A stretch of 64,000 nt of DNA from positions 248,001 through 312,000 of the forward strand of contig JAJIRX010000019.1 in the NCBI GenBank assembly GCA_023853785.1, read 5' to 3'. Below the pieces are notes generated by a model, which worked only from the letters and a program-made list of their open reading frames with translations, was not told where the DNA came from and made no database searches. Below are positions 2,887 through 50,344 of the stretch, piece after piece; within the stretch, counting starts at the first letter, position 1, and every line of letters begins with the position of its first letter. The position numbers were made by a program, and so were the translations under genes. This DNA is from Psilocybe azurescens. Taxonomy: Eukaryota; Basidiomycota; Agaricomycetes; Agaricales; Agrocybaceae.

Positions 2887-3371
2887 TGTGATGGAGAAAA
2901 CTACGGATATTGAACAATCAAGGGGAGGATGGGAGGTGGTTGGGAGTATAAGGGCAGAGCAGATGAAGAAAGAGAACGGCAGTGAAGAGAATTGACGAAC
3001 ACAGCCAGTCTTTGCCATATCCCACGGTCGGACCTCCTATTAGGATCCTAAATCGCGCCCGAATATATCGCAACCAACATAACGTTAATGGCAGTGTCGA
3101 CCCATGTCAGCACAGCTATGGACGAATATTCTCACCGTGTCTTGTACCTGAGCTCACTCCACATAACGGTGCTTGCAGCAGTCACAAACGATTTTACTTC
3201 AGTAATCTATGTTGGCTACACTGGGTACATTTTTCGTACAGAACAATTCGACACTGAAAATTCAGAAACTCCAAGACATTTTTGACGACCTCTTGACTGA
3301 CCCGCACTCCTTTCATGAAATATTCTATCAGCCAGATAGCCCGGGAATCCAATAGCATGGCTAGCACATGT
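2887..3371. other. 5' flank of the ubiquitin-like gene, conserved in all three blocks
   Basis: No convincing gene. The flank aligns by eye with 26745-27215 in block B and 47471-47698 in block C. Landmarks are TATAAGGGCAGAGCAGATGAAGAAAG (in parts), GAACACAGCCAGTCTTTG and CAGCTATGGACGAATATTCTCAC. It contains the empty sites used to define insertions in block C. A TATAAG lies about 55-60 bp upstream of the gene's ATG on the opposite strand sense, so a promoter role is only a guess. Confidence 0.6.
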
Positions 3372-3887
3372 CACTGCTGGCAGGGGGGGGTTTTAGGCAG
3401 GGTAAAATCTAGGTTAAATATTAGCTTGATTGTATTAAATTTATCCAGCTTTCACCTAATCGAAAAGACAATTAAAATGAAAACTGTGACCTGGCTCAAA
3501 ATAGTCGAAACAAGAGAAATTTAACAAGTCTTTTATGGCGTGATTTATATTTAATTTTATGGAGATTTTGTGCCACCGAAAACAATAGCAACATTTGATA
3601 TTTATGGAGAATTGTTCCTCAAATTAAATGTTAAAATTATTTATGGACAAAAAACGATCGAAAGGCAACTATTATCAATAATTTCATACTTTCTAAAAGT
3701 AAAAATCGATTGTGACATTTTACCGACAATAAAAATCCTGCCAAAAGTTATACTTGAACTGCGCCAAAAGGAATAGGGTGCTGAAGGCCCCTCTGTGCGG
3801 GTGCCTAGCAACCCGATTTGAGCACACTCGAACCTAGTATTCCTTCAGGCAATTGATAAGCAGTGAGACGGAGATTAGATAGGTTTG
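3372..3887. repeat. Left terminal and subterminal region of the CACTA element
   Basis: AT-rich, no gene. It begins with the terminal inverted repeat and carries short motifs resembling GTGACATTTTACC (near 3713) and GCAACATTTGATATTTATGG (near 3588). Related motifs occur at the other end (GTGACATTTTACC near 18628, CAACATTTTATCGG near 18586). Such subterminal motifs are the usual transposase-binding region in this superfamily. Short open frames here look random. Confidence 0.65.
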
Positions 3888-6800
3888 TTATCTTACCCGA
3901 GATAAGGAGACCACGGCGATGACATTGCGATCTTCCCACCGCATGGGACAATAGGCGAAGTGCGAAGCGATATTATCAAGTGGATACAGTTCGAGTTCAT
4001 CGAGTTCTTTGCTCCATAACTGTGCCCGGAGGAAAGGGAAAGACGAGAACGGATCAATTTTGACCTCAGATGGCATATAGCGTTGGGCAGCCGCAAACAT
4101 TAGCAAAGTTTCAGGGTTATCGGGTAAGGAGAGCTGTACGAAGTATTCAATCTGAGCGGGGAGCATTACGCCTTGCCGTCCCGAGTCAATCAAAACTGAG
4201 CTATTTCCCAGATGACGTGAAGCCACTGAATATGTGATTCCTTTGATAGTGAGTGTCTATATCACCGAGATAGAGTTAGGGCGATCGCCATCAAAGGTCT
4301 CGAGGATACAGGACATTAATGCAGGAGGGATTCTGGTATTAGGAGTAGTCGGTTTTTCGTCAATGTTATCAACATCGTCCAGGTTCCTGATGGCAAAGCT
4401 TAACATGTCGGTCGCCAAAGTATCTCGGGTCTGAGGTTGAATAAACTTCTGAAATATGGGCTTGCAGTGTCGAATAACTTCAGGAGTCCCTGTTTGCTCA
4501 AGAATCCGCCGAAGGTTCGATGAACGGACAAAACTTTCAGCAATAGTCACCTCATATTCACCTGCCCATATTGAAATAAATAAAATATCACATAACTTGC
4601 TTTATAAAATCAATCATACCTTGTTTGTAGTTGGTTAGGATGCGCTGGAGCATCCCAATCATACGTTCAAACGGAAATGCCCACCAAGAATGCACAGGAC
4701 CATATAGAAGGATGTAGTTGGCCAAGTGGAGTGCCATATGGTGGTTGGGAACAAATTTGAAGGTCGGAAAGAGCTCTTTTATTCAGCTCAAGTAAGCCTG
4801 CATGTGCTGCAAGTACTCATCGGCGTGGCAGCGAGACATTTTTGTGAAGTGGCGATAGACACCGCGGAGAGGAGAGAAATCGTGACATCCAGGATTTTCT
4901 GGCACCGCACTGATTGTGGATCTCCTGGATCTGCAGACCACCAAAGACGCATAAGGGTAATAGGGAAGAACACAGCGCCCAGAACTCGCCATTGGTCCGC
5001 TTTTAGTTTACCGTGACTAGCAGATCCCAACTTTGCTGGAACGGAGGTGAACCACGAAGGCGTAATTGTAGATGAGATGTCATCATGAATTTGTTCCATT
5101 TCTTCCTTATTGAAGATGTGGCCACAATTGGTCAATGTAGTGACATGTCCGTAAGGGTCAGTTTGCCTTTCGACCTGGATTTTACGCTGTGGGTAGGTGA
5201 TATGTGCATTGAGTATCATCACATACTGAATGCGTAGACATGAAAACATACCCATTCTAGAATACCACGGGCATAGTCTGCCCGGGTGAAACGGGAAACC
5301 TTACGGCCGTCAGTGGCCAATGGTTTACACCCACGATGCGCGAGTTCCGAGCAAGCAAGGTCCAGTGCTGCAAGACGGAGATTCGACAACCCTTTAACCC
5401 ATAAAGCCATGCCAATTTCGGTTTGCAAGTCCTGGTTGAGAGGTCGAGTTAAAATTTTCATTAGTCGAACAACACCCTTTTTGTCTGCAGGATCCATGGT
5501 GGTCCAGCGATCGGAGAATAGCAAGTCGATTGAAGGAGTATCGACGTCTGGATCTTTGTCTAATCGTATACCAAGAATGTCCTGAAAATGTTTATTGATT
5601 ACACCCAAAAAGAGATTGTGCATGGGATCGATGACAACAAAGCGGGTAGGATCAAAATAGGGGAGACACAGAAGCTCCGACCATTGTACACCTGTTTGAG
5701 CAAATATTTCTTCACTCTCGAGTCTAGTCGTGGAACTGATGTACGCCTGTGCAGATGTACATGTTTCTTCATTAGTTCAGGGCCGCCAGAGGTGATTCTC
5801 AAGGTGTCCATAGCCATGCACGTTGCGGGTACAATGACATATGTGGCAAAAATTCTTATGGGCAACAGAACCAAATCCTGCTAATTTTTTGGCCACAATT
5901 AAATCACATACTAAGCACGCGATAGCGCACCGAATCAGTCTTCCATTTGGATGACAATGGGTGTGTGTAAACCAAACACCGGGGCACCAAAGTTCCAAGA
6001 AAAAGTCGACAATAGGCTGAATATAGTGGTTCAACGTGTCGAGTGGAGGTTCATGAGGGCCAGGTATAATACCAGCGAGAAACATGTATTCCGATTTGTA
6101 GCGAGTATCGGGAGGAAGGTTGAGACAAACTAAAGATATAAGCCCAATTGAGACCTTCTTTCCCGCTTGCTTATTCGACAGTGGGTTGAAAAAGTCAACC
6201 GACAGGGAGAAGACATAGTGACCTTCTTCGCCGCTTTCGCTGAAAAGGTTTCCATTCGGCCCTTTGAAATTTCTCAGCATATCGCCATCAAAGATATCGT
6301 TCATGTCTTCTCCGTTGCTGCCTGAGTTAGTCCATGCACTGTCCATTTTCGCTTCCAACCCCGGTTGCCCTAAGAGGCGTCCAATCCAATCCTTCAAGTC
6401 GTAGGCCACATATGTTTTGATCGGAACCGAAATCATAGAGCCTGAAATAATGCGGGGGGCGAACAGGGGCATTTTGCACCGTATTCCAAAGCGACGATGG
6501 GTGCAAAAGGAGGGATATATGGGTATCGGCGATCCTTCATTGAACGTTGGCTTGTAGGAGGCGTGACAATCAGTGTCGGGGCAAACGGCATAGATAGTGG
6601 CCTTGGCGTCAAGGTTGAATTCCTTGTCAGCGGTACGAGGGTCGATTGGGAAATCAGACAGTAACTTGACGTCAGCGCTGGGAGAGCGATGAATGCTCGC
6701 GCATGAGGCATAGCTGAACGATATAACGCAACATGGCATATAAAAGAGCACATCCCCTGCGATTAGTTCCCGATATGACCTGGCAAGCAACGACCATGAA

Positions 6801-7571
6801 TATAGAAAGTTGGATTAGAGGATCACTCGGCGACATGAGAGGTTTAAAATGATGGTCTAGAGGTTACCAAGAGTAAGTATAAATAGTGTGTTGGAATACG
6901 ACTGGGATGTCAATTACCGTTTGAGTATTCGATGGAAGATTTCTTAGGGTGCTGGACAACTTCTTGGGCCTTTTCCCAATCTTCCTTCGCAGATTGCAAC
7001 ATTCTCTTGATGACATCAACTTGTTTCCGGACGGCGTCCTTAGCTGCAGTGACGGCTGGAGATTTGCAGGTAATTTTGGTAAGATCTGATTCGAGATGGC
7101 GGCAATTGTCAATTGATTTGGCCAACGGGAATAGTGGAGCACGAAGGAAAGGCAATCTCTGCGAATGGTGAAGTTTGGTGGCGACTTCCACGTGTAGGGT
7201 ACTGGCTGAAAATTCTATTTCACTCAGACGTTCAAGGACCCGATGTACACGGGCAATCCTCACAGATGAGTCCTCCGTAGGCTGATACAGAGACGGGGAT
7301 AGATCGTGGACGATATCAAGGGAAGAATCTGCTTTCGGGAGTTGGATAGTTTTGTCGTAGCCAGATGTTGAATTATGGTATCAAGTTGGTTCTGAATAAC
7401 GTCTTCTGCAGCGTCAACAGCTTTCTGGGCTAAAGCAGATTGACTGGGAGCGCCTGCATGCTGATGCTCCTGGGCTGTTCGATCATGAAGGGAGTGGGCC
7501 TTCTGGGTACGAGGGTCGATATCTTTGCCTCCGCACTTGTAGAATGCACAATGGCAGGGAACTTTGACCAT
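3888..7571 (-). pseudogene. Tnp2-type CACTA transposase, decayed
   Basis: Read on the minus strand it starts at the ATG before VKVPCHCAFYKCGG, a typical N-terminus of this basidiomycete family, followed by a helical segment. The central block (6790-5777) carries the conserved run from SYRELIAGD to AGFGSVAHKNFCHICHC. After an in-frame TGA at 5779-5777 comes VIDPMHNLFLGVINKHFQDI (about 5650-5580). It continues with DQWRVLGAVFFPITLMRLW (near 4990), a stretch around FVPNHHMALHLANYILLYGP (near 4710) and the C-terminal part ending VIAVVSLSR (3900). Family knowledge: these proteins catalyse cut-and-paste transposition of CACTA elements. At least one frameshift near 7360, another near 4890 and the TGA break the gene. 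It fills the left quarter of the element and is transcribed towards its left end. I am confident of the family and do not expect an active product. Confidence 0.88.
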
Positions 7572-7920
7572 ATCTGTAAGAAACCCGACACCCGTTGTAC
7601 GACGAAGAGATCGCTGGAAGACAGTGAAATGTGAAGGGATGTGATTTGGGGAGATATTGTACAGCAGACACCCGATGTACAAAGAAGGGAGCGTCGGAAT
7701 GGATGAAGTTGTTGAGGGTTGAAATTGGGAGTGACAAAGACGGATGAGATGTTGAGGGCAAAGCTTGCGGCTCTGAAGAAATACTTGAGGTTTGAGCGAA
7801 TATAGAACAATTGTTGCCTTGCAACCATTCTTGCTCGTTCGCCGGCCGCCCCCACTGAGAAAGTGTTATTGTTCTCAAAAGGGAGAAACATCTTGAAGGT
7901 CTTGAAGTCCGGAAACTGAT

Positions 7921-8201
7921 ATCTGGACACCCAGATCTCATGTTATAAGCTCGTACTGAACATTGAAACCGTCCACTGGACACCCAGTGGACGATCTCGT
8001 CAAGCGTGGGCGGAGTCGGTGTCTGCAAACTGCGTTGGGTCGTGTTGGGCATTGAACGTTGAACGTTGAGATCATCCACTAGACACCCAGTGGAAGATCT
8101 CGTCAAGCGTGGCAAAGTCGGTGTCTGCGAAGTGCGTTGGGACGTGTTGGGCATTGAACGTTAGAGGTTGGGATCGTCCACTAGACACCCAGTGGACGAT
8201 C
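7921..8201. repeat. Hairpin cluster 1: four loop-conserved hairpins in ~90-bp tandem units
   Basis: Hairpins lie at 7921-7936, 7970-7993, 8070-8099 and 8172-8201. Each has the 8-nt loop GGACACCC or AGACACCC flanked by complementary arms. At 8172-8201 the arms GATCGTCCACT and AGTGGACGATC pair perfectly over 11 bp; at 7921-7936 the arms are ATCT and AGAT. The last three sit in tandem units of roughly 90 bp that also carry TTGGGCATTGAACGTTG and CAAGCGTGGG. About 300 bp of this tract is duplicated at 11883-12203. Confidence 0.85.
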
Positions 8202-8849
8202 TTGTTCAAGCGTGGGCGGACTCTGCGAAGTGGTGTTGGGTGATTGTATGAAGTCCGCCGAAGCTCTTACCAAGCACCACCAAACAATTGAACCACCCGC
8301 TAGCTCGTTCTCCACTCAACCTGTACTATCTCTGGCTCTCAACTCCATATCAACTAGGTGTCTGGTTGATGTGGAGTTGATATCCGTCGGTCATATTCCT
8401 CTCTCTCATAGGAACTGTCAACTGGGTGTCTAGTTGAGTTCCTACCAACTTGTAATTACTCGACTCAATCGTTCAGATATATCATTCGGTAAGTGCTTGG
8501 GACCTTCTACATGAAAAAAAAATAGAGAATATAATAAGACTTCTTAAGGGAACTTCCTTCCAAAGCATATCCTCGCTCTCGACGCTTTCAACTCCATATC
8601 AACTGGGTGTCTAGTTGGATATGCACCACCTTTCTTCGACACCAACTAAAGCTCATCCCACCTTTCGCCTTGAAGCTTGCCCCATTCGATACCGTCTCCG
8701 TCATATTCATCCTCCTCCGATGGCGGAAATGCTGCTTTCGGATCCCATTCAGTTATCCCCGGTCCTTTCCTTCCTGCCTGAGCCTTGGTGGACTGCTCGA
8801 CGATCTGATTGATCCCTTCCAGTGTACGTCTTGCTGCCTGTTGAAATTA
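8202..8849. repeat. Hairpin cluster 2 (8340-8623) in a gene-free stretch
   Basis: Three hairpins share loops of the GGGTGTCT type. The first (8340-8379) has 15-nt arms, CAACTCCATATCAAC against GTTGATGTGGAGTTG, with a single T:G pair. The second (8411-8442) pairs TCAACT with AGTTGA and continues with GGAAC against GTTCC. The third (8595-8623) pairs CATATCAACT with AGTTGGATATG, one base bulged. I see no credible gene in this interval. Confidence 0.82.
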
Positions 8850-10330
8850 TCAGTATCTCCTTACATGTATAATGCAGGAATATTTACTTGTGAAGCAAGA
8901 GGTGCCCAAATCGCCGACGTCCAATATAATACCAGAAGAATTATCAGAAGATTCAAAATCCTTCCCGACCTTTCCCGCTATTGTAGTCACTTTCATCGTG
9001 ATATCTTCGCCTTTTAATCTGACATTCATCGGTAGGTTTCTCAACAATTCTCGGTATGTTTTCTTTCTTACCGTCTTTTCCCATACAGTGATCTTGAAAG
9101 ACCCGGCCGATACACCACTTGCTATAAAATGTGCCTCGGTGGTTGTCGTTGTCTAGTGTCATGGTCAGAGGTACATTCAAGAGAGAAATTATCACGACGT
9201 ACACTGATTGCTTGCACCTCCACTCTCTTGCTAGCAGGGGCCAAGACCTGGATGGGAATTGACGACAAATTGGTGAATATATATACCCTTCCATGGTCAC
9301 TTCCACAGACAATCGCTAGGATCCCTGCTCGGCAAAGGCTCCATCTTTGACACACTTCTTGGTACTGGGGATTGCGAAGGCGCAAGAGGGAGAAGAGCGT
9401 GGTAAGTTGTACAAATCAAATCCTTTTGACAAATTGTCGACAAGTAATAGCTTGCTTGAGGGACAGGTCGTCGCATTGCCACTGATCAACTTTGTGAGTA
9501 TCCAAAAGATCGTGCTTATTTTGGACTTACATTCCTGACTTCAGGACCTTTCTCCATTCTTCTCGAGATGTCTCTACATCGTGGCAAACCCTGAGAAGAG
9601 CTACTGTAAGTCTCAGCGGTCTTCGTTCCAAAAAGTGCTTACATTTCGCCAGTTTCCAGAATAAAAACTAGGATCTTCCTGCCTCCCTCAAAAATTGAAC
9701 AGATCGCGGTATGCCGATCTTCTTTCTTTGTTGCTTTTCACTGACCACAGCTCAATCATAGTTCCTGTTGATCGACTAATTTATATTACTCCACAATGGT
9801 GCCAGATATAACTCACCATTTCTACCAATATCGTACAAGGCAATACTACCATGGTGACTTGTTATTGCAAGGTGAGATTTTTGCTGTCAAATGCAATTGC
9901 TTCCAACGGGGTCACTAGCTTCAAACACCCTATTACTAGCCAATTCGACCATTCGTGCCTTGAAAGTTGTCAACATAATTTATTCAGGAAATGTTGAAAA
10001 AGGCCTACATCGACCCTTGGACGCTGATAAATGACTACAAGACCACGACCAGTACCAAACGCGATTGGCTTCAGTTCGTCGTTCCCTGGGCTGCCCAGCC
10101 AGGTCAGACACGTAATTTGGCCCCATCGTTTCCCAGGATCTTCGAGAATATCCAGGCACTTCTTCGTGGAAATCTCCCAGATGCGCACCGCTTCATCGTC
10201 ACCTACAACACTTTCAGATTCAGCGAAGCCGTTAGTCATGACATACGACCTCCACTAGCCAGTAGTTCGCCTCCGTGGGTGAAAGATAGACAGTTCACTG
10301 GGCCTGTTGGTCCTTTGAACTTAGCGTACT
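8850..10330 (-). pseudogene. WD40-repeat protein remnant (CACTA cargo)
   Basis: On the minus strand the piece at 10239-9970 reads VVGDDEAVRIWEISTKKCLD, then GQITCLTWL and FGTGRGLVVIYQRPR. These are WD40 blades of a kind repeatedly found in mushroom genomes. Further along come ITSHHGSIALYDI (near 9830) and ILAIVCGSDHGRVYIF (near 9290). Between them the frame is lost several times, for example around 9900. WD40 propellers are protein-interaction scaffolds, but no function is expected from this copy. It is transcribed in the same direction as the transposase and sits between hairpin clusters 2 and 3. Confidence 0.72.
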
Positions 10331-10778
10331 TGTAGTAGGCCTAAATCATGCGTAATTAATAAGTTATTTCATGAACCCTAAAACACACCTCATCTGGTGA
10401 TGAGCGCAGATAGACGGAAACAAGACGAAAACATTTATAGAGGAGATCAGCCAACATGAGAGTCGATAGTACTATGTCAATTGCTTCTGAGGTCAACCCA
10501 TCCTATTATATGAGAACCGATTTTATTGTTGTCATTCACTTATTGTTTACTTAACGACACACTTAGATGACGATGATGTATAAATCTGGTAAGTGTGTCC
10601 TGGCACTGTCATCTCGGGTGTCAATATCCCCAAGGCGAAGACAAAGACAAAGCTGTCGGATCCGGATTTAAAACAATGCACTTATTATTCAAGCTGGTAA
10701 ACGAAATACAAAGCAAATACAATACAGGAATCAGACTATAAGTGCGTCCACATCGAAACGCAATGTAAACTTCGAACC
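10331..10778. other. Gene-free stretch inside the CACTA element
   Basis: No gene or repeat recognised. It separates the minus-strand WD40 remnant from the plus-strand gene at 10779, so it could hold divergent promoters, but I see no clear motif. Confidence 0.5.
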
Positions 10779-11567
10779 ATGGATGCTCAGATTGAAACCC
10801 ATCTTCCACTGATCACGGCTAGGCTCATATTTGCTCCCAAAGTGTTTCACCCTCCTCCTACCATTACTCCACGAATGGAGTTTCCGTCAATTATTTTAGA
10901 AGAACGAGAGCATTTTCCTACTCCTGACATCAGGCGCCGCGAACTACTCCAGTCCAGCGAGCGACTACTCCAGTCAGGCGAGCGACTACTCCAGTCCGGC
11001 AAGCGACTACTCCACCCAAGCGGGTCAGAATTTCCGAAGCTCCTTCAAAGGGTGTACAACGTGGGCGCATCACCAGGCCATTCAACCATAGGAGATGCAA
11101 TCGAGGTCGAGTTCATCATGTCAGATGATGACGAGATCATGGGCGACGACGACGGCGAAGAAGCGAGTGAGGACGAAGAAGCAACCGGAAGTGAGGGAAT
11201 CAGAAAGGGGTTGATACCGAAGCCAAAGGGTGATGTATTGCATCCAGGAAGAGGCGGCTATAACCTCAGCAAGGCGTTAGGTTGGAACCAGAAGACCTAT
11301 GACAGTGTATTGGTAAGTCACCCTGTAGAGTCTAAATACAAAGCCGCTGACCGAAAACTTAAGAGTGTTGTCACAAAATTGGCCAAGGAGAAGCTTGATA
11401 CAAGCAAGAGCTATTGCAGGCAAAGCAAGAGAAAGGTTCATCAGCTCTTAGAGACTGTCAGTGACATTTCGTTCCCCAAATTATGTTCAAGGACTTACTT
11501 TAAGAATCTAGGTTCACAAAGAATTCAGTTTCCTGAAAGACTACGAGAAAGATTGGCCAGTACATGA
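10779..11567 (+). CDS. Conserved agaricomycete hypothetical protein, C-terminal fragment-like (cargo)
   Basis: An open frame of 262 codons starts at ATG 10779 and stops at TGA 11565-11567. Residues about 48-83 contain three to four copies of a short repeat (RLLQSGE/RLLQSGK). Residues about 114-145 are strongly acidic (SDDDEIMGDDDGEEASEDEE). A block with PKPKGDVLHPGRGGYNLSKAL around residues 147-170 resembles the GRxxxGGYNL core of a very expanded mushroom family of unknown role. After that the match weakens: a CNKxxxxxQ-like region remains, but the usual DYExDWxVxDF end is only found out of frame (KDYEKDWPVHD near 11540), so this copy is probably frameshifted. Hairpin cluster 3 follows directly. 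Confidence 0.55.
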   Translation: MDAQIETHLPLITARLIFAPKVFHPPPTITPRMEFPSIILEEREHFPTPDIRRRELLQSSERLLQSGERLLQSGKRLLHPSGSEFPKLLQRVYNVGASPGHSTIGDAIEVEFIMSDDDEIMGDDDGEEASEDEEATGSEGIRKGLIPKPKGDVLHPGRGGYNLSKALGWNQKTYDSVLVSHPVESKYKAADRKLKSVVTKLAKEKLDTSKSYCRQSKRKVHQLLETVSDISFPKLCSRTYFKNLGSQRIQFPERLRERLAST

Positions 11568-12415
11568 CATGCTGAAGACTTACCTAAAAACAGTTCACAA
11601 ACAGCTCAGAATACAAGGGGAAGAGAGACCACTGAGGAGATCGAGAAGGTAAGGAATTACATATAAGCATATCAGCAGAACAGCATTTGACGAGACTTAC
11701 AGATTGCAAGGCGGGCTTCATCGAAGAGTAAGGAGTAGATAGTAGTACAATATACCACAAATAAAGAGGTCCTCTGGACACCCAGAAGACGTTCAATTCA
11801 AACAAGATATGTTCTGGTCACCCTGAACACGTTGAAGACAGACAGAGAGTGAGCATCCTGGTCGTATTACTGGTGCACTTGAGCATTGAAACCGTCCACT
11901 GGATACCCAGTGGATGATCTTGTCAAGCGTGGGCGGAGTCGGTGTCTGCAAACTGCGTTGGGTCGTGTTGGGCATTGAACGTTGAGATCGTCCACTAGAC
12001 ACCCAGTGGAAGATCTTGTCAAGTATGGGCGGAGTTGGTGTCTGCGAAGTGCGTTGGGACATGTTGGGCGTTGAACGTTGAGGTTGGGATCGTCCACTAG
12101 ACACCCAGTGGACGATCTTGTTCAAGCATGGCGGACTCTGCGAAGTGTGTTGGGTGATTGTATGAAGTCCGCCAAAGCTCTTACCAAACACCGCCAAACA
12201 ATTAAATGCTCAACCCTATCTCCTGGCATATCAACCAATGGGGTATATTAAAAAATTATGAAGCTACAGAATCGTGTTTCCTGGATCTTCAACGTCTCCG
12301 GAAGCAAAGCCATTCTCCACCTACCCTCAAACCAGACTGCCTCACACAAGACAAGAATCTGAAGGGTAAGACATATCATCAAATTTCAACAAATTTGCAT
12401 TGCAGGTGCACTAAC
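11568..12415. repeat. Hairpin cluster 3 and duplicate of cluster 1
   Basis: Hairpins lie at 11769-11790 (GTCCTCT/AGAAGAC), a degenerate one at 11811-11828, then 11893-11916, 11986-12015 and 12088-12117. The last again has perfect 11-bp arms (GATCGTCCACT/AGTGGACGATC). The tract 11883-12203 is a near copy, in the same orientation, of about 7959-8284, extending into the flank GATTGTATGAAGTCCGCC. From 12204 to 12415 I see no gene. Confidence 0.82.
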
Positions 12416-13221
12416 TCACTTTTTGACAGCAAAGTCTACGCGTCCTGCATCCTTTCCACCCATGTCAACTGGGTCAGACGGATTTTTCTTGCCTATCCTC
12501 ATGACCACAATATCCCCGTGCCATTTTCCGCCCATCTTGTCAATAACATTGTTGTACACAAGGCCTGTTCGGTTCTTACATGATATCTGGAATTCATGTG
12601 ACTTGCGGCCTTCAAGGATGACTATGTGATAGTCGTAGATGTATGACTTGGGGAATGGATCTCCAAAAGCACTGTGCATCTGCTTCAATTTCGGAGCTGC
12701 ATCTTGGACCATTATATTGCCAAAGAATGGCCTGGTTTCACCTTGGCGATAAAGTCGCCCCCCTGACTGTGAAATATTTGACCTAGGAAGTAGTGAGCTT
12801 GTATAAGTACAATAACCCAATATATCAATTTCTTTCATACCTTCTTCAAAGCATAAACTGGGAGTTTTTGGGCATTTCTGATGTTCAAAGGCGATTGAGC
12901 ACAAAGATCGACTTCTTTGCTGTTTGCTTTGCTCCCAACTCCGAGACCATACACTTTATATAATAATTATTGTGAGCCCTGTTGTAACCATGTAATTCAT
13001 TCTACGCACTTGTGCATGTAGATGGATAACAAAATCATAACAATTATAACAATAAACTTGTGATGGACAACCGGACAACTTACTTGATTTGTATTTGATG
13101 TTCGCTCAGTTTTGCAAGTCGACAAAAGAACGCTATAAATACCGACTTGCATTATAGCGGCAAGTGGATCGCGAAGGGTCGGATTGAGTACTAGTTTGCA
13201 TTGCGTCGACACTTTCTCCAC
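12416..13221 (-). pseudogene. Conserved mushroom hypothetical gene remnant (cargo)
   Basis: The main exon (12782 to 12426, minus) reads SNISQSGGRLYRQGE to GKDAGRVDFAVKK. It has the core KWHGDIVVMRIG and an ending of the form GKDAxxxDFAV that I recognise from a multi-copy family of unknown function in mushroom genomes. A GT-AG intron of about 55 nt (12839-12783) precedes it, and a donor follows AVKK. Upstream exons towards 13221 (LVLNPTLRDPLAAIMQVG) are short and out of phase. No role can be assigned. Confidence 0.45.
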
Positions 13222-13360
13222 TTGGCGACTCAGGAGAAAGGAGCCATTGTTCGGTTACTCGGTAGCTTGAAATCGTATACCCATGTAGTGAAACAATAAA
13301 GTTATTATATTCAATATATAGCAGTAGTATTACGGTTGCAAATTGCTTTACCGAAACACC

Positions 13361-15096
13361 ATGCCTTCGAGTTCATTCCTACAGCAGATTTTACCACTGT
13401 CCAGGCCGCGGACTAGAACCAAGGACATTGAGATGAACGAAAACACTGCATCTAACAGCAAATTCCAGAAATCGACCAACGACGAAGAGGTATTTACACG
13501 ATGCTATATCTGTCCATTTTCTAATACAGAGATCTAGAATCTCATGGGCGTGTTTACTCCCCCCCTCACGTTATATACCACCGCCTTTTGGATATGTGCT
13601 AGGACTGGTGCCGACTTGAGCCACCCATTGGCAGGGGAGCAGCTGGATGCAGTTCCAAGACCACTCATGGATGATAGCCCTGGACGTTTGTCCGCCATAA
13701 CCTCTGTCCAACCAATTTCAACTTCAATTCCTTCCGGCGCCTGCATTGGGATCACCTTTTCAGTTCAAATTTGGTGAAAAAGGCCAATATCCCACAAGCG
13801 TCCATCCCATCTTGAAGGCAGAGCAGGGAAATATAAGGGTACTGAACGACTTCCGATCTCGGAAGAATCGATGGTCGAGAAAACTCGCGTCGTCGAACAG
13901 CAGGCATTGGCAACCAGGCAGATAATTAATCAGAAGAGTGCTGAGGTAGAGGCTGAGGTATGCCTTAAAATGCCCTGTATATGCAAATTGACTTCAACAT
14001 ATATAGGCCGAGAAAACACGCTTCATCGAACAGGAAGGACTGGCGACGAAATTGTTGCTTGGACAGAGGGAGGAACAGATCATTGAATTAGAGGCCCAGG
14101 TACAGCTATATGTGCCCTCGAAACCATTTAAAAGCTAACAAATGATAGGTCGACGTTTATAAAACCGAATTATCAGAGTTCATGGCACGACTGGAGAAGC
14201 TGGAGGGGGATATAGCGAAAAGGGACAATCTAGGCAATGGGTCAACCACTCAGGTTGCTGCCATATTGACCCCAAATTCCTCCAACAATCCTTTGCCCAA
14301 CAATCCTTTGCCCAGTGGGGAAGACATTCACATGGCCAGTGCCACTGAAGTGGGGTCGGAAACGGTCATGCTCCATAAAGCATCACACGCAGAAGATGCT
14401 GCGACAACCAAAGAGAGCATTTCGAATGAGGGAGACTCAAGTTCTATGGCAAAGGATGCCGAGGAACGGGGCCAGGAACCAATTGAATTCAACGACGATG
14501 AATTCGAAGGCGATGATGTCAACATGTACGATGACGACAAGGGAACCAAAAACAGGAAGGGAAGAAAGTTACGGGAGAAAACACCGTTGTGCTGCGTTGA
14601 ACAATGATGATGATGAAATGACCGCCAAGTCCGACAGTGATAGTGACAAGGAGGGCGATGACGAGGACGACGAGGACGACGGGGAAGAATTGGTAAGATG
14701 CCTTTTTGTCTTGGAGATCTACGCTGACTCTCTCACAGAACGACGATAAATCTTCCATCCCAAAGCCTGTCTTTCATTTCCAAAGACCACGCTGGAGGTG
14801 CTGGGCCACGATTACGAGTGGATCCTACAAAGCCTTTCAATCCCACCACCAAGCCAACACCCAATCCCACAAACATGCCAACGTCGTTACTTCAGCCACT
14901 TGGAATGACACCAGAGCAAGTTGCAGCAATTGTCCAGATTGTCCTTGCGATTCAGGGCCAGAATTCGGGCAAGTCGGTCGCTCCGATACGGACCTCAACC
15001 GACGAGTCGAAGGGAAGTGGTGCACCAGGAGGCATCGGTCGAAACATCGCACATATATCGCCATTGCCCCGGACACAGTATCAGTCCTCACTCTAG
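13361..15096 (+). pseudogene. Coiled-coil and acidic-tract protein remnant (cargo)
   Basis: Coding pieces can be followed from the ATG at 13361 (PSSSFLQQILPLSRPRTRTK). A coiled-coil segment runs from EEQIIELEAQ (near 14080) over short introns to LEKLEGDIAKRD (14220). A strongly acidic tract follows (near 14480-14695: EFNDDEFEGDDVNMYDDD, then DDEDDEDDGEE). A proline/threonine-rich tail with LGMTPEQVAAIVQIVLAIQG lies near 14900-14960. Frame is lost near 14570 and again near 14770. A GT-AG intron is plausible at 13963-14006. The layout (coiled coil, acidic stretch, low-complexity tail) matches a multi-copy mushroom gene type without known function. Confidence 0.5.
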
Positions 15097-15710
15097 ACAC
15101 CCAGAGCGAGAAGAGAACCGTGAACCAACCGCGGGGCGAAGTCGCTGTTCCTCTAGACACCCAGAGTAACATCCTCAGCCACGACTCTAGACACCCAGAG
15201 TAGTGGATGGGAAGGCACAAGTGACAATGTCACAAGTGCCAACAGTCGAAGTGAGGCGCAGACGAAGTGCACACATGATGTTTGTACGCAAAGACGCTGA
15301 CAAACACTAGTGCCAGTTGTTGTCCTAAGTCGTTTCTCAACCTCTTTGACGACGACCAACGCACTCTGGGTGTCTAGAGTGCTTCTACAGGCCGTCTGTC
15401 TACTCCTACTTATCTCTCTCTTTAATACACACTAATTCACTCGCATAACTTCGTCTCTCTTCATTTTGACCACTTCCACTTATACCTCTACCCAACCTCT
15501 ACCTTCTCTCATTACGATGTGTTGACGCTGTATTCTGGGTGTCTAGAGCCCAGAGTCCTCCACCCAACCTCTCCCTCTTCGACGTGTTGACGCTGTGTTC
15601 TGGGTGTCCAGAGCCCAGAGTCCTCCATCCCAACCTCCAATACCTCAAATCCTACTGCTATATCTCCTTTTGGCGCTTTGACACCGTGTTCTGGGTGCCT
15701 AGAGCCCTCA
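15087..15710. repeat. Hairpin cluster 4 (seven hairpins)
   Basis: Hairpins lie at 15087-15110 (CTCACTCT/AGAGCGAG), 15147-15170 (GTTCCTCT/AGAGTAAC), 15184-15201 (ACTCT/AGAGT), 15361-15382 (GCACTCT/AGAGTGC, perfect) and three degenerate ones at 15534-15547, 15599-15612 and 15690-15703. The loops are again AGACACCC or its complement GGGTGTCT. The arms differ from those of clusters 1 and 3 yet remain self-complementary. The last three lie in tandem-like repeats containing GTGTTGACGCTGT. Confidence 0.83.
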
Positions 15711-15849
15711 GTCGCTTCGCTCTTGTCCAACACACTCAACGCGAATTTTATCGTTCAAACAACTTCTATTCAATGTATGTATTCAGTATGTTTGATAGGC
15801 TCTCATTGCTAAACTCCTGCTAGAATGAAACCTGGCCTCAGTTCCAGCG

Positions 15850-18201
15850 AAATTGACCATTCTTTCGGGCATGCTTTCCTTAGGAATGGGGAGATCTACT
15901 ATTCCCCCAACTGCTCGCTGGTCGAGTAGCCGTACCGGAATACCACGAAAACAATCCCTACCTCTTTCATCGCCAGGATGCGCGATATGAAAGGTTCCTA
16001 TTGCCCACATGGTGGACGCGACCATATCACTATCTCGCGTTTGTTCCCCTCACGACCCTCATTCGATGGACTCGTGTTTGGTTGCCTCCGTGAATTTGTC
16101 CCCCACATCATATCATATGGAGATGGAGATAAGTACGGGTTGGCATCAGAGAAGGTTTCTCAGTGGAAGGATTTGGAGGATGGCCTCCTCATGATCGCTT
16201 TCCTCCTCAATAAACATCACTGAACGCAAATTTGTGCGGCCCTGAAGCCACCTCTTCCATCTTTTCTCGGGTTTGGCAAAGCCTATCGGGAACACCGCTC
16301 TGCTTGTCTTTCTATCGCTGCCTCACGCGATTGGTTCCTCATGTGGATGGCATTAATCTCTGGCAAGATGGCCGATATTTTGAGCTTAAACGAACCCGAG
16401 GAAGCAAAAGACTGGTTCTCTCTGCTCAGCGACGACCATATTCCAGAAGCTTGGTTGAATTCCATGATAGCCTCCAGGATATGCAGCTTTTCTCAGCAGT
16501 GTCCACGTGTCGGGACCTTCCTCAACATTCACAATCCACAGCCACACCAACCAAGCGTCCAATGGTTCCTTGCCTTTCATATACCTGTTTGGTATTGCTG
16601 GCACCCAGGCGGTCCTGACCAATTGCGGCCCCCAGCGCACTTCTTACAAGATGCGACAACTTTTATCCCCAAGTCACCATCTCGAACGGTTCCGATCGTT
16701 TCCTTCTTCGGCACCATCACCTCGCTCCTTTATCTCCCCTTCGCCGACCTACGGAGCTCTCACTTGATGAGTACCAGAAAGCCAAGAATACGACGCCGTT
16801 TCAAATGTCTGGGATTGCTGTGAGTACTTTGGAGAACCTGACTACAATGACAACTATGACGACAACAACAACAATTACGGGGATATGCACCCAGAGTCCT
16901 CTGCCCCAGAACTTGGCACAGAAGCTCAGGACTATGAAGCCATCCTCAACGAGTGGGTTGAGGAGGTTCAAAGAAATCCGAATGCTTATTCCATCGACCT
17001 GAGAAGGTATTCCGAGCGCGGTCCAGAGACCAATCTGGAGCATAGTGCTGGTCAGGTCAATATTCATCAGTACCTATACCGCTACTACGGGTTTCTGGCC
17101 CCTATACCTATTTCTGATGCCACCCTGTAAATTCTAACAATGACTGGGGTGAATGTCTGAAATCTGTCGGCCTCAATGCCAAAGTCAATGAACCTCTTCT
17201 GGGACTCACTGGCCCTATCGTCAATTTCATCAAAGGGATGCAACAAGCAGCTGGACCACAGGCCTTCAAATGGGACCTTCTGGCGGATAATTACAATCCT
17301 CTAACCAAGGACCTCATCTCCCGTCACCTTCGGTCGACTTCCAAACGGGCGAATATCTCCTTCTGAAATCCTCTCTGTGCAATGATAGGCCGCGTGATTG
17401 GCATATCGCATTAACAACATCTGCCAATGCACTCTATGTAACCAGATGGCTGGTCGATATCAAAACCGAGAGCGTCCCGATTGAAGATGTGGCCCAACAT
17501 CTTGCCGAAGAAGGCATGTCTTTTCGCACATATCTCACCCTAGACCCACTCCCATCAACGATTTCTTTGTCTGGGATCAAAGCAGCAATTCCTCGGCGTA
17601 GCGCCAACTACACATTTACCGTCAACGATTACCAGACATATCTTTCAGACCACAATCGACTCCTGTCCACCCCTCGTGGCCGAGCAGCTATTCTTCGAGG
17701 GGGAATTGTAGGCCGCCTCGCCAAAGAGTGTCTTGGAGTCGACACGGTCCTCTCTGGCCCTTCTTCAGTAGTAACTACCTATCGTCTTGGTTGTTCCGTT
17801 GACCACTCCCAAGGGACTTTTTGGGATGACAATCTCACCGACGATGAACTTGCCATAATCTGTGGGATGTTTTACTGCCATACTGGTATGTTACATGTTC
17901 ATTAAGTCTATTGGTATCTAACCATATTTTAGGAAATCGAGACCAAATCGCAAAACTCTCATGGTGGCCGCTGCCTGAATATTGGGACCAAGTGAGTAAC
18001 TCGTTCAACTGGGGACATTGGACGGAATGGGACGAACACTGGTATCAAGAGCATTTGCTGAAGATCCAAGATGGGAAAGTCCTGCCTCTTAGCCATACGG
18101 GATGGCGGCGTAAATTGAAGTCGGCGCCTTCTTGGAGAAAGGTCACGATGATAAATCTTGAACAATCGAACAAAATATGTGCATCCCTTCCCATTGCCTA
18201 G
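15850..18201 (+). pseudogene. Conserved agaricomycete gene of unknown function, decayed (cargo)
   Basis: Pieces of one long protein follow each other on the plus strand. They include LFPSRPSFDGLVFGCLREFV (16040), SFLGFGKAYREHRSA (16270), RDWFLMWMALISGKMADI (16340), EAWLNSMIASRICSFSQQCP (16450) and QPSVQWFLAFHIPVWY (16560). The C-terminal part is DDELAIICGMFYCHTG (17850), then after a short GT-AG intron (17886-17931) AKLSWWPLPEYWD and YQEHLLKIQDGKVLPL, with the stop at 18199-18201. I recognise the sequence of motifs from a family present in very many copies in mushroom genomes; its function is not known to me. Several frameshifts (for example near 16220, 16800 and 17130) show it is dead. Confidence 0.6.
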
Positions 18202-18728
18202 ACCTTCAATTTTTATTATCCACTTTGATTCCGTTACCATAGCTCAGCCTTGGCTTTCCGCATCAGGTCACTGTGAGTCTGTGACCTCCGTCGAACCCCG
18301 ATTGGCGAGTCGCATGGAGGGGCGATAATTATTACTACTTGTTAAATATGTCATTTTTGCAAAAATTTTACCGACGGCAAAAACAATTGAGAAAGTTTAA
18401 GTTTGAGTGTCAAGAAAAGAATTGGTATGCATTTCTTTTTGTTCCTTTTTTCTCCTTATACAAATTTGATCTATTGTTGTCCATAATATTTGGGCAAAAT
18501 GTGTCGTGTATGCCCGATTTGCCCTCCCGATAAAGTTACAATTGAAGCAATATTTTATTGAGACTACAATAAACTAAATACGCAACATTTTATCGGTCTG
18601 CAATTGTTACTAAAAGGAGACCTTTTAGTGACATTTTACCTGTGTTATTATCTGACTAAAACTAAAACAAGCAAACTGATCTTTTACGAAGATTTTGCCC
18701 TATCTAAAAACGGCCCCTGCCAGCAGTG
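18202..18728. repeat. Right subterminal and terminal region of the CACTA element
   Basis: AT-rich and gene-free, ending in the inverted repeat CCCCTGCCAGCAGTG. Motifs such as TTTTACCGACGG (18362) and GTGACATTTTACC (18628) match motifs in the left subterminal region. Confidence 0.65.
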
Positions 18729-18731
18729 TGT

Positions 18732-19632
18732 ACCTGTCAAGATGTCATACAACTATATCACAACGGTTCCCTCTCGAGAATTTTAAAAATGCAAAGCCAT
18801 TAAAATTTGCAGCACATGGAAATCAGAATGAGACGAAGATGATTACATTTTAGTACATCTGCTGCTAACCCATATGTCGGTCAGAATATGAAATGTTTGA
18901 GCCAGGGCTTTTTGATGGATCAGCAATAAGAAACCGAGTAAGAGCATATCACCACAAATTTTGAACGAGCAGTGGGTGCGAATAATGACAGCACAATAAA
19001 ATAGTTCTATTATTTAAATGTGATTATAGAAAGCATAAATAAAACATGATTGTGTCAGCGGTCGTAACAGATAAAGCATCCACAACCAATTCATAACGAT
19101 AAATCAGTACGTAAAGAAAATAGAGGGGAGAGACAGGCAATTGAATGAAAATATACACCTCCAGTCATCGTCGTGCTATATATTGGGAGAATGTGGTATA
19201 TATGCCCTAGGAAAGTCGCGTCGCGAGTCCACGGCGCGCCAAACCAGACCGCACGCGCCGCGTCACGCTCTCAACACGTTCTCACGTGACTTATCATTTT
19301 ATTTCTCCAGTTCGCCTAGACGTCTCTTCACTAAGTACAACATCGACGAAAGGTAGACAAACTCCCTCTAACCGTCGTATCCCTTATCTGCCGCACTCTG
19401 ATTATATATATATATATATATATCTTGTGATCTCTTGCATTATACGACCACGGAATTATCGTCATTTTCGACTGCGTTGGCAATAAGCTCTGGTGGCGGT
19501 ACGAAACGAAAAGGAACAGACATCTATACGCACCAAGACCGAGGAGGCTGGGGATAAGCCAAAAACCCCAGGTCACACGACACAAACACCGACACCAACA
19601 CTTACGCACAAATCACGACGAGACAATGACGA
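18732..19632. other. Block A sequence upstream of the helicase-like pseudogene; (TA)n tract
   Basis: No gene. The stretch aligns with 27225-28670 of block B (minus its inserted retrotransposon) and 61040-61455 of block C, with landmarks CTCCAGTCATC, CACGTGACT and CATTATACGACCACGGAAT. A (TA)n microsatellite occupies about 19403-19423. CACGTGACT and the TA-rich tract just before the pseudogene's first exon could be remains of a promoter. Confidence 0.55.
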
Positions 19633-27818: not shown

Positions 27819-28293
27819 TGTAGCGGTCTGGGTTTCCCGCTACTATATAAGTCCACGGCCGCCCCAGGAAACATGTACTGGAGTAACGGGTGTGACGATC
27901 TGAAAGTTGTAACGTCGAAGCCTGACTTGGTTCAGACTTATCTCGGGACAGATAGTCCAACGGTTGTGCCGTGTGCAATTCCGGCATGTTCCATTTTAGG
28001 CAGAAACGTTACATTTGGTGGAACAAGAGCGAATGCGTTCGAACCACGGCAAACGAGAATGTTTGTGATTGACCCATGCCTCAATCAGGATGGGGGTATG
28101 TAGCGGTCTGGGTTTCCCGCTACTATATAAGTCCACGGCCGCCCCAGGAAACATGTACTGGAGTAACGGGTGTGACGATCTGAAAGTTGTAACGTCGAAG
28201 CCTGACTTGGTTCAGACTTATCTCGGGACAGATAGTCCAACGGTTGTGCCGTGTGCAATTCCGGCATGTTCCATTTTAGGCAGAAACGTTACA
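27819..28293 (+). mobile_element. TRIM: 475-bp LTR-internal-LTR retrotransposon in miniature
   Basis: Two direct repeats of 195 bp, identical as far as I can see, lie at 27819-28013 and 28099-28293. Both begin TGTAGCGG and end CGTTACA (TG...CA). They bracket only 85 bp of internal sequence, and a 5-bp duplication CCTCA flanks the element (27814-27818 and 28294-28298). A TATA box (CTATATAAG) lies inside each LTR. The internal part starts close to TGGTGGAACAAGAGCG, a possible primer-binding site, and ends in a purine tract (AGGATGGGGG) just before the second LTR. The empty site is present in block C near 61245 (TCTCCGCCTCTCAACTG). It cannot code for protein and must have used another element's enzymes. 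LTR identity means a recent insertion. Confidence 0.93.
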
Positions 28294-39989: not shown

Positions 39990-41326
39990 TGCCTACAGCC
40001 TCACCATCTTCCCTCGACACTATCCTCCAGATTTGGAACATCATTTTCCCTTCCCTTTCCCTTCCCCTTCACCAAGGTTGCTCCAACTTCACTGAGATCT
40101 GGGCATTCACCAATATCATTGAGATGGGCCCAGTGTGCTGGAAATGTTTGCGACAGCTTGCAAGATCGACAGTCAACATAGGCTGTGGTTATGACAACAA
40201 ATACGTCCATAGGGACACCCATTTGCGAGTTCCACTCCAGGAAAGCGATGCCGATTGGAGTGTCAAGGAACTCCTTTGCTGTCTCAGCAAATGCTGGATC
40301 AGCAAAGGACCTCATCTTGAGGGCTCAAAGAGTATCGGTGTCGGCATCCTTCTTTGATACTGCAGACAAGATCGTAAGTTTCAAACTTTGACAGATAGAC
40401 AGATCAAAGTCATGACTTACTGGTTAACTCATTGGACGTGCTTTTGCAGCAGCTGTCTTGTGGATCAATATGGCGGTTGTAGCCATCAGGAGAGAACATA
40501 CAACCACAGACATCACACTTGACTGATAGTTCAACTAGGGCCTGGAGTGACGACTTCGGAACACCCAGAGTGGAGTTCAATTCACGAAGTATGGAGCCAA
40601 CAGTGGTGGTGAAAAAATTGAGGTTTTGGTAAATGCAATTGGTGCACCCAGGGTAAAGACGATCGTCATAGGCTTGTAAGACAAGAGGGGTGCTGTCAGA
40701 GTCCCATGCGATGTGAGCGGAAGGGGATTCTGAAAACAAACAAAAAGAAACATTGTTAGAATCACACATAAGATATTGAACATCTTCATTTACCTTTATA
40801 TAAACCAGATTTTTCGTTATAAAACAATTCAGTCATGAGAAAAGTATCTAAAAAGCAAAGGGTTACAGTCCATGCATACAAATATCAGCAAGGTTACATA
40901 CCAGAGTTTTTGCGTGCAGTAGCAACGGCCTCTGTAAAGAAGCTACAGCGCAGTTGCAAGTTGGCTCAACAATGTCATAGGGCATGGAGATGGCCGCAAT
41001 CGATGCTTGCCAGGAGATAGATTTGGTAACAACCTAGGATTAAAGTTTGGGGCGCCTGGGATGTTTTGAGAGCTGGAGCTGGAGAAGACTGGTCCTTTGA
41101 AGAGGGGCACAGTTGGAGAAGAGGATACCACAGAGGGGTTCTCGAGGAACCAGCCCTCGGAGCAAGCATGTGTTCAACCTCACTTCGCGGATGACGTGAG
41201 ACGCTTTCGATGGGCTGGAATCGGTAAGGCCAAGTAAAAAGTCCTGATCGTCTGAAAAAGGCTGTAAATATCAACATTGATGACTATAACTTAGAATCAA
41301 GACTTACAGGCACAGTACTTTACCAT
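39990..41326 (-). pseudogene. 3' part of an interrupted conserved mushroom gene
   Basis: Minus-strand exons read, in order, SDDQDFLLGLTDSSPSK (about 41265), CTNCIYQNLNFFTTTVGSIL and KCDVCGCMFSPDGYNRHI (40620-40460), and after an intron SKKDADTDTL, a TGA (40327-40325), then FADPAFAETAKEFLDTPIGI and ITTAYVDCRSCKLSQTFPAHW (40315-40130), ending at 40001. CxxC...H residues in KCDVCGC...H could form a small zinc finger. The 5' half lies at 43231-44000, on the other side of the 41328-43230 element. The family is multi-copy in mushrooms and its role is unknown. Confidence 0.5.
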
Positions 41327-41327
41327 C

Positions 41328-43230
41328 CCCCACACAGTCCATATGGACTCCAGTGGACTCCAGTGGACTCCACTGGACTTGCCTATATACTGAGTGTAAA
41401 AGGTAAACAGAGTCCAGTGGACTCCAGTGGATTCCACTGCACTTTAGTAGATCTTATACTATACATTGAATATGGACTAAAATAACTGTAGTCCACTGGA
41501 GTCCACTGGAGTCCACTGGACTTGACACAGTAAATAAATTCAATCTTAACATAAATTCAGATTAGTGGAATAAAGTATATTAATAACTATTTAATACATT
41601 ACTACATATCTACATGTGAGGGCCAAGACAAAAGGAAGAAAAAGATAATAAAATAAAAAATAAAAAAGGGGGAGCAGGAGCAGTACTTTACCATCGTACG
41701 TGTCGTCCGTCGGGTCGTCCGTCGGGTCATCGGTACCGCGTCCGTATCCATCGCTGTCGCAGCCGCCGTACCCGTCCTTGTCGCTGTTGCAGCCGCCATC
41801 CGGCGTCTCTCGTCCTCGCTCCTCGTCCCTGCCGTCCGCTGTCGGTCCTCGTCCCTGTCGCGGCCGCCGTCCGGCGTCCGCATCCTCGTCCCTGCCATCC
41901 CTGTCCCTGTCGTCCCCGTCCCTGTCGTCCCCGTCCGTCCCCGTCCGCTGTCGTCGTCGTCGTCCCTGTCGTCCCCGTCCGTCCTCGTCGCTGTCAGCGT
42001 CCGGCGTCGTCGTCCCTGCCGTCCGCGTTGGTCCTCGTCCCTGTCGCAGCCGCCGTTCGCGTCCACGTCGTCGTCCCTGTCGTCCCCGTCCCTGTTGCAT
42101 CCGCTGTCGTCGTCCCTGTCGCGTCCATGTCCGCGTCGTCGTCCCCGCCGTCCACGTCCGTCGTCCCCGCCGTCCACGTCGTCGTCCCCGCTGTCCACGT
42201 CGTCGTCCCCCGCTGTCCACGTCGTCGTCCCCGCTGTCCACGTCGTCGTCCCCGCCGTCCACGTCGTCGCTCCCCGCCGTCCACGTCGTCGTCCCCGCCG
42301 TCCACGTCGTCGTCCCCGCCGTCCACGTCGTCTCCCTGCCGTCGTCTCCCTGCCGTCCACGTCGTCGTCCCCGCCGTCCACGTCGTCGTCCCCGCCGTCC
42401 GCGTACATCGTCGTCCCTGTCGCAGCCGCCGTCCCCGTCCGCATCGTCGTCCCTGTCGTCCCCGTCCGTCGTCGTCCCTGTCGCGTCCACGTCCGTCCTT
42501 GTCCCTGTCGCAGCCGCCGTCCGGCGTCCGGCGTCTGCGTCTGCGTCCTCGTCCTCGTCCTCGGTCGTCAACCTCTGTCGCGTCGGGTTGGCTGTCGCCT
42601 GGCTCCGACCGGCGAGGTGGTGGTGGTGGTAGTCGGAAGAAAGGTTGGGGTCGTCCATTTGATGGTTGTCGTGCCGATCGGCTGATGCCGGGCACGTGTG
42701 AGCGTCACATGTTCTTGTGAAATTTGACCCCGCGGACTGAACAAAATACAAAATTGTATCCATAGGGAGGCATTGCTCCCTAGTGTATTTAACTATTGTT
42801 TCATTTAACTGTCATTTCATAGAGTTTATTTCCATTGATTTTAGTCTTTTATTTTTGCAATTAATATTAATAACTAATGATCATACTTTGGATATTGTGT
42901 TAATTATTGCATCCAGTGGACTCCAGTGGATTCAACTGGACTCCACTGGACTCCACTGGACTGTGCTAATAAATATATTATTTGTTGTTGTTCAGTGAAT
43001 ATTTAAGCCCCAGTCCAGTGGACTCCAGTGGACTCCAGTGGACTTGACTGGACTCATAATCCACTGGACTGAGACTGGACTGAAAATTTGGCAGGAGTCC
43101 AGTGCAAGTCCAGTGGACTCCAGTGGACTGCAGTCCAGTTCCAGTCCAGTGGACTGGACAATCTGTCAGCCAGTTTGGCTGGACAGAGAGTCCAGTGGAG
43201 TCCACTGGAGTCCATATGGATTGTGTGGGG
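41328..43230. mobile_element. 1.9-kb palindrome-rich TIR element splitting a gene
   Basis: Both ends read CCCCACACA(G/A)TCCATATGG inward, followed by repeated GGACTCCAGT, giving inverted repeats of more than 30 bp (41328-41360 and 43199-43230). Just inside each end lies an array of the palindromes GTCCAGTGGAC and GTCCACTGGAC (41338-41525 and 42910-43215). The core is a GC-rich minisatellite. The element separates the two halves of the minus-strand gene 44000-39990. A 15-bp exact direct repeat CAGTACTTTACCATC lies at 41313-41327, touching the left end, and again at 41681-41695, before the core. No simple target duplication spans the whole element. Confidence 0.75.
41690..42640. repeat. GC-rich minisatellite core (18-bp unit and variants)
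   Basis: A tract of near-perfect repeats of GTCGTCCCCGCCGTCCAC (18 bp) at about 42140-42410, with related CGTCGTCC and GTCCTCGTC repeats on both sides, in otherwise AT-rich surroundings. Because the unit is a multiple of three, long frames are open on both strands (one of 390 codons on the minus strand, rich in Asp, Gly, Thr and Arg). Frames open on both strands at once are the mark of a repeat rather than of a gene. Confidence 0.85.
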
Positions 43231-49113: not shown

Positions 49114-49170
49114 GTGTAGATCTGTGTCAACACAGCTAAGATAGGGAGCGTCAGGAACCAGCACCCTTAG

Positions 49171-49594: not shown

Positions 49595-49604
49595 TTACCC
49601 CCTT

Positions 49605-50321: not shown

Positions 50322-50344
50322 TGTTGGATATCAATATTTGTTGC

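Follow-up and report, generated by a model that had tools for sequence, protein, structure and literature searches.

Plant CACTA transposons, including soybean Tgmt*, have subterminal repeats in which short motifs occur in direct and inverted orientation; these can form many stem-loops, and they differ between families, as described in PMC2613891. These stem-loop subterminal repeats are the nearest published system that we have seen to the one considered here. Among fungal elements, EnSpm transposons have CAC...GTG termini and 3-bp duplications, and EnSpm and Plavaka elements with extra genes have been described; in the text of PMC12730594, the words subterminal and hairpin are absent, and "palindrom" occurs once, on another matter. 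This report deals with clusters of short hairpins inside a CACTA/EnSpm-type transposon of the basidiomycete Psilocybe azurescens. The element lies in a stretch of 64,000 nucleotides (the window), which is C19:248001-312000 in the searched genome of 70.4 Mb and 937 contigs.

An earlier note on this DNA had described a family of hairpins with an invariant loop and covarying stems. The new finding is that the hairpins are strand-polar, a property that the note missed, as it did the wobble pair within their core. The covariation, the conservation and the wobble polarity described below are best explained by selection on a single-stranded hairpin; RNA in transcripts running outward from the clusters would be its simplest form, and single-stranded DNA of the same strand would be another possible form. 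Our tentative explanation, to which we give slightly less than an even chance, is that the hairpins are short single-stranded signals, most likely of RNA, in the outward transcripts of a modular CACTA transposon and that their apex would be read by a protein.

Hairpin arrays and the pairing of their stems

A covariance model was built from 33 hairpins, the sites of this window included, and matches were reported at E<=1. The hairpin sites of the 64 kb number 20 and are confined to 7654-15712 (19 in 7913-15712 and a decayed one at 7654-7685); the search gave 21 rows, one of them being the opposite strand of the 11889 site. No further match was obtained in the rest of the window at this threshold. 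The arrays located by the model are as follows, with the strand that reads GGGTGTCY and, where it applies, the sense of a neighboring gene (G1 is the transposase gene; G1 to G6 are listed further below).

A-left: 7654-7685 (decayed), 7913-7944, 7966-7997, 8069-8100 and 8171-8202; GGGTGTCY on the minus strand, which is outward and in the transposase sense
A-right: 8344-8375, 8412-8443 and 8593-8624; GGGTGTCY (AGGTGTCT at 8344) on the plus strand, which is outward
B: 11764-11795, 11804-11835 (weak), 11889-11920, 11985-12016 and 12087-12118; GGGTGTCY on the minus strand
C-left: 15083-15114, 15143-15174 and 15177-15208; GGGTGTCY on the minus strand
C-right: 15356-15387, 15525-15556, 15590-15621 and 15681-15712; GGGTGYCY on the plus strand, which is outward and in the G5 sense

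The arrays are at module junctions between genes of the element, in agreement with the earlier statement that the sites lie between cargo genes. Array B partly duplicates A-left, both repeat regions being similar to the same stretches of other copies. A strict scan, which counts hairpins with a score of at least 8, finds four in A, three in B and none in C, and so it undercounts. The element outside 7654-15712 has no model match, and the outer 801 bases of either end have no comparable array; the possibility that these are the subterminal repeats of this element was rejected, the motif being missing from the element ends. A coding tandem repeat was also considered, with minus-strand open frames crossing A and B, and is unlikely because the spacing of the A-left units differs between copies (103 and 102 bases in the window, 102 and 101 in C253) and the frame is not kept.

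The exact core AGACACCC occurs 14 times in the window, versus a shuffled mean of 1.74 and a shuffled maximum of 5, and 11 of the 14 are within 7921-15703; the remaining hairpin sites are one or two bases off. The earlier count of nineteen sites with an exact 8-nt core therefore stands if one or two core changes are allowed, the exact cores in that interval numbering 11. Genome-wide, CTRGACACCCAG is present at 262 places, mostly clustered, as compared with 17 for the reversed control. Among the first 100 places listed, 95 have a neighbor within 1 kb and five are solitary, and at the two solitary places whose flanks were examined (C30 and C66; loci L016 and L017) the arms are unpaired. Thus, equal frequency of the core in the absence of pairing arms, the point that the earlier note had proposed to check by a genome scan, was not found. 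Its impression that the sites are confined to the CACTA element is correct for the 64-kb window and incorrect for the genome, with its 262 places. Chance or a general genomic motif is rejected by the excess in the window, the genome-wide excess over the control, the arm pairing and the clustering.

The sites have in common a constant 12-nt apex on stem-forming arms that vary. Pairing of the arms was determined without selection on the arms in 20 groups of CTRGACACCCAG places; it is 0.85, 0.76, 0.62, 0.79, 0.61, 0.52, 0.45, 0.41 and 0.46 at positions 3-11 outward, and 0.26, 0.25 and 0.23 at positions 12-14, whereas shuffled arms give 0.23-0.38. This is the cleaner test, because the rows of the 33-row alignment used for covariation had already been filtered for Watson-Crick arms. 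For that alignment, 147 matches were reduced to 131 by removing unrelated cores, and of the 34 representatives all but the decayed 7654 site were used, which gives the 33 rows. It contains 95 double-change cells, versus 38.3 +/- 5.4 after shuffling and 29-42 with the partner slid, and changes are present on both sides in 10 of the 11 pairs; further pair types show no excess (31 versus 31.4 shuffled). Covariation of the paired positions, one mark of a structured cis-acting RNA, is thus present, and the constant core with compensating stems proposed in the earlier note is borne out. Its description of the arms as always self-complementary goes too far; they pair above shuffles, and several have mismatches or bulges.

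The hairpins are also conserved between copies. In a related family of elements (family 2, described below; the element in the window belongs to family 1), the variable columns are 2 of 119 in the core, 7 of 154 in the arms and 93 of 963 in the spacers (hairpin versus spacer, p 0.0004). The values for family 1 are 16 of 294, 35 of 386 and 191 of 1658, respectively (p 0.0035), in a pool that includes two versions of cluster A, one containing a misaligned C248 stretch and the other omitting C248; cluster A without C248 has 0 of 84, 3 of 112 and 28 of 532.

Strand polarity and outward layout

Both strands of the hairpins were folded. The strand that reads GGGTGTCY folds as CUGG[GUGY]CYAG, and so what had been described as a fixed 8-nt loop is indeed a constant part, but one of about 12 nt that on this strand consists of two further pairs and a GUGY tetraloop. 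The A/G variation of the core is a G.U versus a G-C pair on the outward strand, where the outer core pair is standard at all 33 aligned sites (G-C 19, G.U 13 and A-U 1), as compared with 20 of 33 inward. Within the stem, in columns 4-12, the same 33 sites have 27 G.U cells outward and four inward, whereas columns 1-3, which are at or past most stem ends, have eight and 12. The site filter accepts Watson-Crick pairs only, and so by itself it is neutral between the strands. Counted by group, the wobbles outside the core are 11 outward versus three inward, and in another related family (family 3), taken together with the C650 and C496 sites, they are five versus one when the identical L054 and L057 sites are counted once. 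Outward folds are lower than inward folds in 19 of 23 site groups (p 0.0019), the whole arrays A-left and A-right fold better than shuffles in the outward direction (z -3.6 and -5.0, respectively), and the outward strand is pyrimidine-rich in all 11 half-clusters examined (0.54-0.64). Strand-specific G.U pairs are a second mark of a structured cis-acting RNA, and these strand-polar wobble pairs favor a hairpin formed by a single strand, the simplest case being RNA transcribed outward.

One could also imagine double-stranded or cruciform DNA sites at internal promoters or junctions, in which the dyad CTGG-N4-CCAG (TGGATCATCCA in family 3) would be bound by a TnpA-like dimer that regulates promoters or aids transposition. 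Plant CACTA elements have reiterated motifs near their ends that can fold into stem-loops and to which TnpA-like proteins are taken to bind (PMC2613891), and here the apex itself is a near-dyad and the clusters consist of direct and inverted copies. However, a dimer site predicts conserved half-sites and not differing arms that still pair, and the G.U polarity would be unexpected for double-stranded DNA; furthermore, the element ends, which are the usual place of such repeats, have neither a model match nor a comparable array. We consider such DNA sites unlikely.

Palindromes can also be corrected by template switching or arm-to-arm conversion, and mutational upkeep of this kind would perfect the palindromes around a core that is fixed by descent. 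The tandem duplicates within the arrays, as in A and B, would fit such a process. It predicts, however, no strand bias of the wobbles, and the bias of 27 versus 4 is seen in the stem with none beyond it; likewise, the core is nearly invariant within families (2 of 119 variable columns in family 2) and is shared between families. Upkeep alone is, in our judgment, an improbable explanation.

In clusters A and C of both families 1 and 2, the sites scored + come first and the sites scored - second, and hence GGGTGTCY points outward on both sides. A-left is upstream of G1 and C-right is upstream of G5, both in the mRNA sense in the two families, and by eye the candidate starts of G1 and G5 are preceded by acceptor-like sequences in both families. 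Cluster B has + sites, besides a weak opposite-strand reading of one site. The two-sided array layout is common to three families. The divergent intervals within the modules, 10340-10760 and 12950-13400, have no covariance-model match.

From these patterns we infer outward transcription, RNA rather than single-stranded DNA, protein binding and a regulatory role. In this scheme, transcription would proceed outward from the junction regions, the hairpins would be located in the leaders or promoter-proximal parts of the resulting transcripts, and each would present the constant apex CUGG-GUGY-CYAG on a stem whose sequence changes freely while its pairing is kept. The apex would be recognized by a putative protein, encoded by the element or by the host, and the bound protein would control the output of the transposase (A-left) and of G5 (C-right). 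A broader version, which we regard as doubtful, is that fungal CACTA elements have a strand-specific hairpin code, with RNA hairpin arrays at the module junctions, a family-specific apex, freely covarying stems and an element-specific RNA-binding protein, such that transposase output and module expression would be coupled at the RNA level and the apex and its binder would co-evolve from family to family.

Several observations weigh against RNA signals in outward transcripts. The individual wobble cells share descent, and conservation of the arms taken alone is weak (p 0.047 in family 2 and 0.18 in family 1). Changes between copies inside the hairpins have no strand bias (on the outward strand, C>T 11 and G>A 10), while the spacer changes on that strand are C>T 43 versus G>A 21, and so part of the wobble bias may come from a C-rich composition or from biased mutation. 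The whole-array folds of A-left and A-right beat shuffles inward as well (z -3.0 and -3.4, respectively), and C-right folds no better than shuffles in either direction (z -0.3 outward and 0.1 inward). Several of the pyrimidine values barely depart from 0.56, the median of the richer strand across the window. Finally, A-right and C-left are antisense at the 3' ends of neighboring genes, and B, without a known gene start, is flanked by the 3' ends of G3, to which it is antisense, and of G4, with which it shares the sense.

Host element, related families and rearranged modules

The host element is a CACTA/EnSpm transposon, as judged by its ends, its target-site duplication and its Tnp2 transposase. 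The ends are CACTGCTGGCAGGGG, which are inverted repeats beginning with CAC; a 3-bp TGT duplication is present on both sides; and the open reading frame (ORF) at 5780-6814 matches PF02992 (Transposase_21, Tnp2) with E 8.6e-11 and 41.9 bits versus a curated cut-off of 28.6. In two of the other copies, homology starts no more than six bases from 3372, and in two it stops at 18728. The features are:

3372-18728 (15.36 kb): CACTA/EnSpm-type transposon of family 1, with CACTG...CAGTG ends and imperfect terminal inverted repeats of ~77 nt (3372-3448 / 18652-18728)
3369-3371: target-site duplication TGT, left copy, by eye from the sequence
18729-18731: target-site duplication TGT, right copy, by eye from the sequence
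3891-7571, minus strand: G1, Tnp2 transposase gene of several exons, matched in family 2; candidate start codon 7571-7569 (by eye)
8864-10340, minus strand: G2, uncharacterized gene; exons conserved in family 2 (tblastn of window ORFs)
10701-11649, plus strand: G3, uncharacterized gene divergent from G2 (tblastn of window ORFs versus family 2)
12419-12955, minus strand: G4, uncharacterized gene with a family-2 match and relatives in Gymnopilus junonius and Galerina marginata
13360-15093, plus strand: G6, probable gene (open frames; family-2 match not found by tblastn)
15825-18198, plus strand: G5, uncharacterized gene; exons matched in family 2

The order along the element is thus G1(-), A, G2(-) G3(+), B, G4(-) G6(+), C, G5(+). 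The candidate start of G5 (15825-15827, by eye) follows an intron-like GTATGT...TGCTAG stretch, and the G5 protein has a relative in Psilocybe cyanescens. Ten ORFs were scanned with Pfam; most of them matched no family, and no recombinase family was among the matches.

Family-1 copies on C248, C153, C253 and C465 are ~94-98% identical over most segments, with lower identity over the repeats and some segments. At 14995-14998, ~1.2 kb of C153 is missing from the window copy, with a 4-base overlap at the junction, and the missing part has the hairpin C153:7421. The C465 family-1 copy is interrupted by ~17 kb between the bases that match window positions 14402 and 14403 (L046/L047, C465:155000-187999).

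Family 2 includes C465:1-16263, C170, C92, C186, C440, C582 and others. Its transposase is 49% identical in protein sequence over the Tnp2 ORF, and tblastn found counterparts for G1 to G5 but none for G6. The stems of clusters A and C in family 2 are different ones, such as GTGTTCT/AGAACAC, AAAACCT/AGGTTTT and AGTGTCCT/AGGACACT, and they too are paired; the apex on them (GGACACCC or GGGCACCC) is the same. In family 3 (C746, L053), where the region is upstream of a transposase that is 54% identical, the apex is GGATCATCC and the arms are again different yet paired; two sites are on one side of the center and three, inverted, are on the other. TTGGATCATCCAA is present at eight genome places versus none for its control, and C650 and C496 have one identical family-3-type hairpin each. 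Descent of all stems from one palindrome, which the earlier note had named as a possible refutation, was not found, since the stems of a related family have other sequences and nevertheless pair.

The arrays are not a universal feature upstream of Tnp2 genes, because L051, L052 and L056 have one strong hairpin or none there. Hairpins with a score of at least 8 number one at L051, none at L052 and L056, and one each at L054 and L057; several are present only upstream of L053 (four) and of the family-2 transposase at L055 (eight).

The clusters are module junctions and old rearrangement points. C465:4237-12357 matches C170:9312-1181 in inverted orientation (an 8.1-kb interior, 92%) with collinear flanks. 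Both breaks are in spacers ~15-25 bp from a GTGTTCTGGGTGYCCAG hairpin, and another hairpin adjoins on the module side. Likewise, inversion of the A-to-B segment would turn the gene order of C465 into that of the window. These observations would be expected if the hairpins were sites at module boundaries that invert or exchange gene modules now or did so formerly, which is close to the earlier proposal of cassette-type recombination sites. However, the shared junction in the one resolved case is a 3-base match between the hairpins, outside the core, and breaks between genes would be expected in any case; the Pfam scan of ten ORFs gave no recombinase domain. Moreover, orientation could be scored from the site lists for 17 of 24 good family-2 matches, and in all 17 it follows the subfamily: ten copies with 97-100% identity to C465 (itself included) have the C465 orientation, and seven with 93-95% have the opposite one. 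An active inversion switch is rejected because the inversion follows the subfamily, and the earlier proposal fails in that form. The resolved inversion looks like one old event, explicable by ordinary recombination between inverted repeats, and we consider a role as recombination sites, present or past, to be very improbable.

The window also has other repeats. At 41320-43238 is a smaller element-like stretch with inverted ends (51 nt, 90%); it is full of palindromic repeats of the AGTCCACTGGACT type, several of its reading frames have long open stretches, and it may be another transposon with palindromic end repeats of its own. The stretch 49137-57014 has 33-nt inverted ends 7.8 kb apart, and an identical 32-nt hairpin (tgaaagtccatca AAGATA tgatggagtttca) is near its ends at 49433-49464 and 56156-56187; this stretch, too, is probably a mobile element, one in which both ends have a hairpin nearby. 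Tandem repeat units of 72 nt, with 76 copies in the largest family, are at 15-1521 and from 23513, ~22 kb apart. Units of ~200 nt are at 27819-28293 and 44236-44443, two direct and one inverted 16 kb away, 95-97% complementary.

Comparison with known systems

Rfam gave no match at gathering scores across 3300-18800, and no relatives were confirmed in viral contigs. In print, at least one of six motif words of 10-12 bases occurs in 168 papers, and among the matches listed, the titles were unrelated to transposons; no earlier description of such hairpin arrays was found by title or abstract in the open-licence literature.

Iron-responsive-element hairpins have a constant apex on a variable stem, are often in 5' leaders and have one protein reader. 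The likeness to the hairpins described here is one of layout, without a claim of sequence kinship; here, there would be several copies per leader, in a predicted transcript with a putative binder. Integron attC sites and shufflons are folded or inverted sites between modules of variable order, and the present element resembles them in that such sites separate its gene modules, which are arranged differently from copy to copy. It differs from them in that no recombinase was recognized, the resolved crossover is outside the core and the inversion is fixed by subfamily.

The fungal EnSpm and Plavaka elements, as described in PMC12730594, are similar in their related transposases and cargo genes, and EnSpm also in its type of termini and 3-bp duplication; the PlavakaA and PlavakaB termini are TGT..ACA and CATCA..TGATG, versus CACTG in this element. 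The plant CACTA elements (En/Spm and Tgmt*; PMC2613891) are similar in having arrays of direct and inverted short motifs that can form many stem-loops and differ between families. However, the plant repeats are near the ends and have a constant stem motif, whereas the arrays described here are internal, with a constant apex and covarying stems. Should the hairpins act as RNA, a DNA transposon of a eukaryote would have a structured RNA signal of its own in multiple copies, and the families, which differ in their apexes (GUGY versus AUCAU), would be ready material for finding the reader protein. Should they be DNA signals, the stem-loop repeats known from plant CACTA elements would still gain a counterpart at internal junctions in fungi. 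The hairpins are also located where the gene modules of the element were rearranged.

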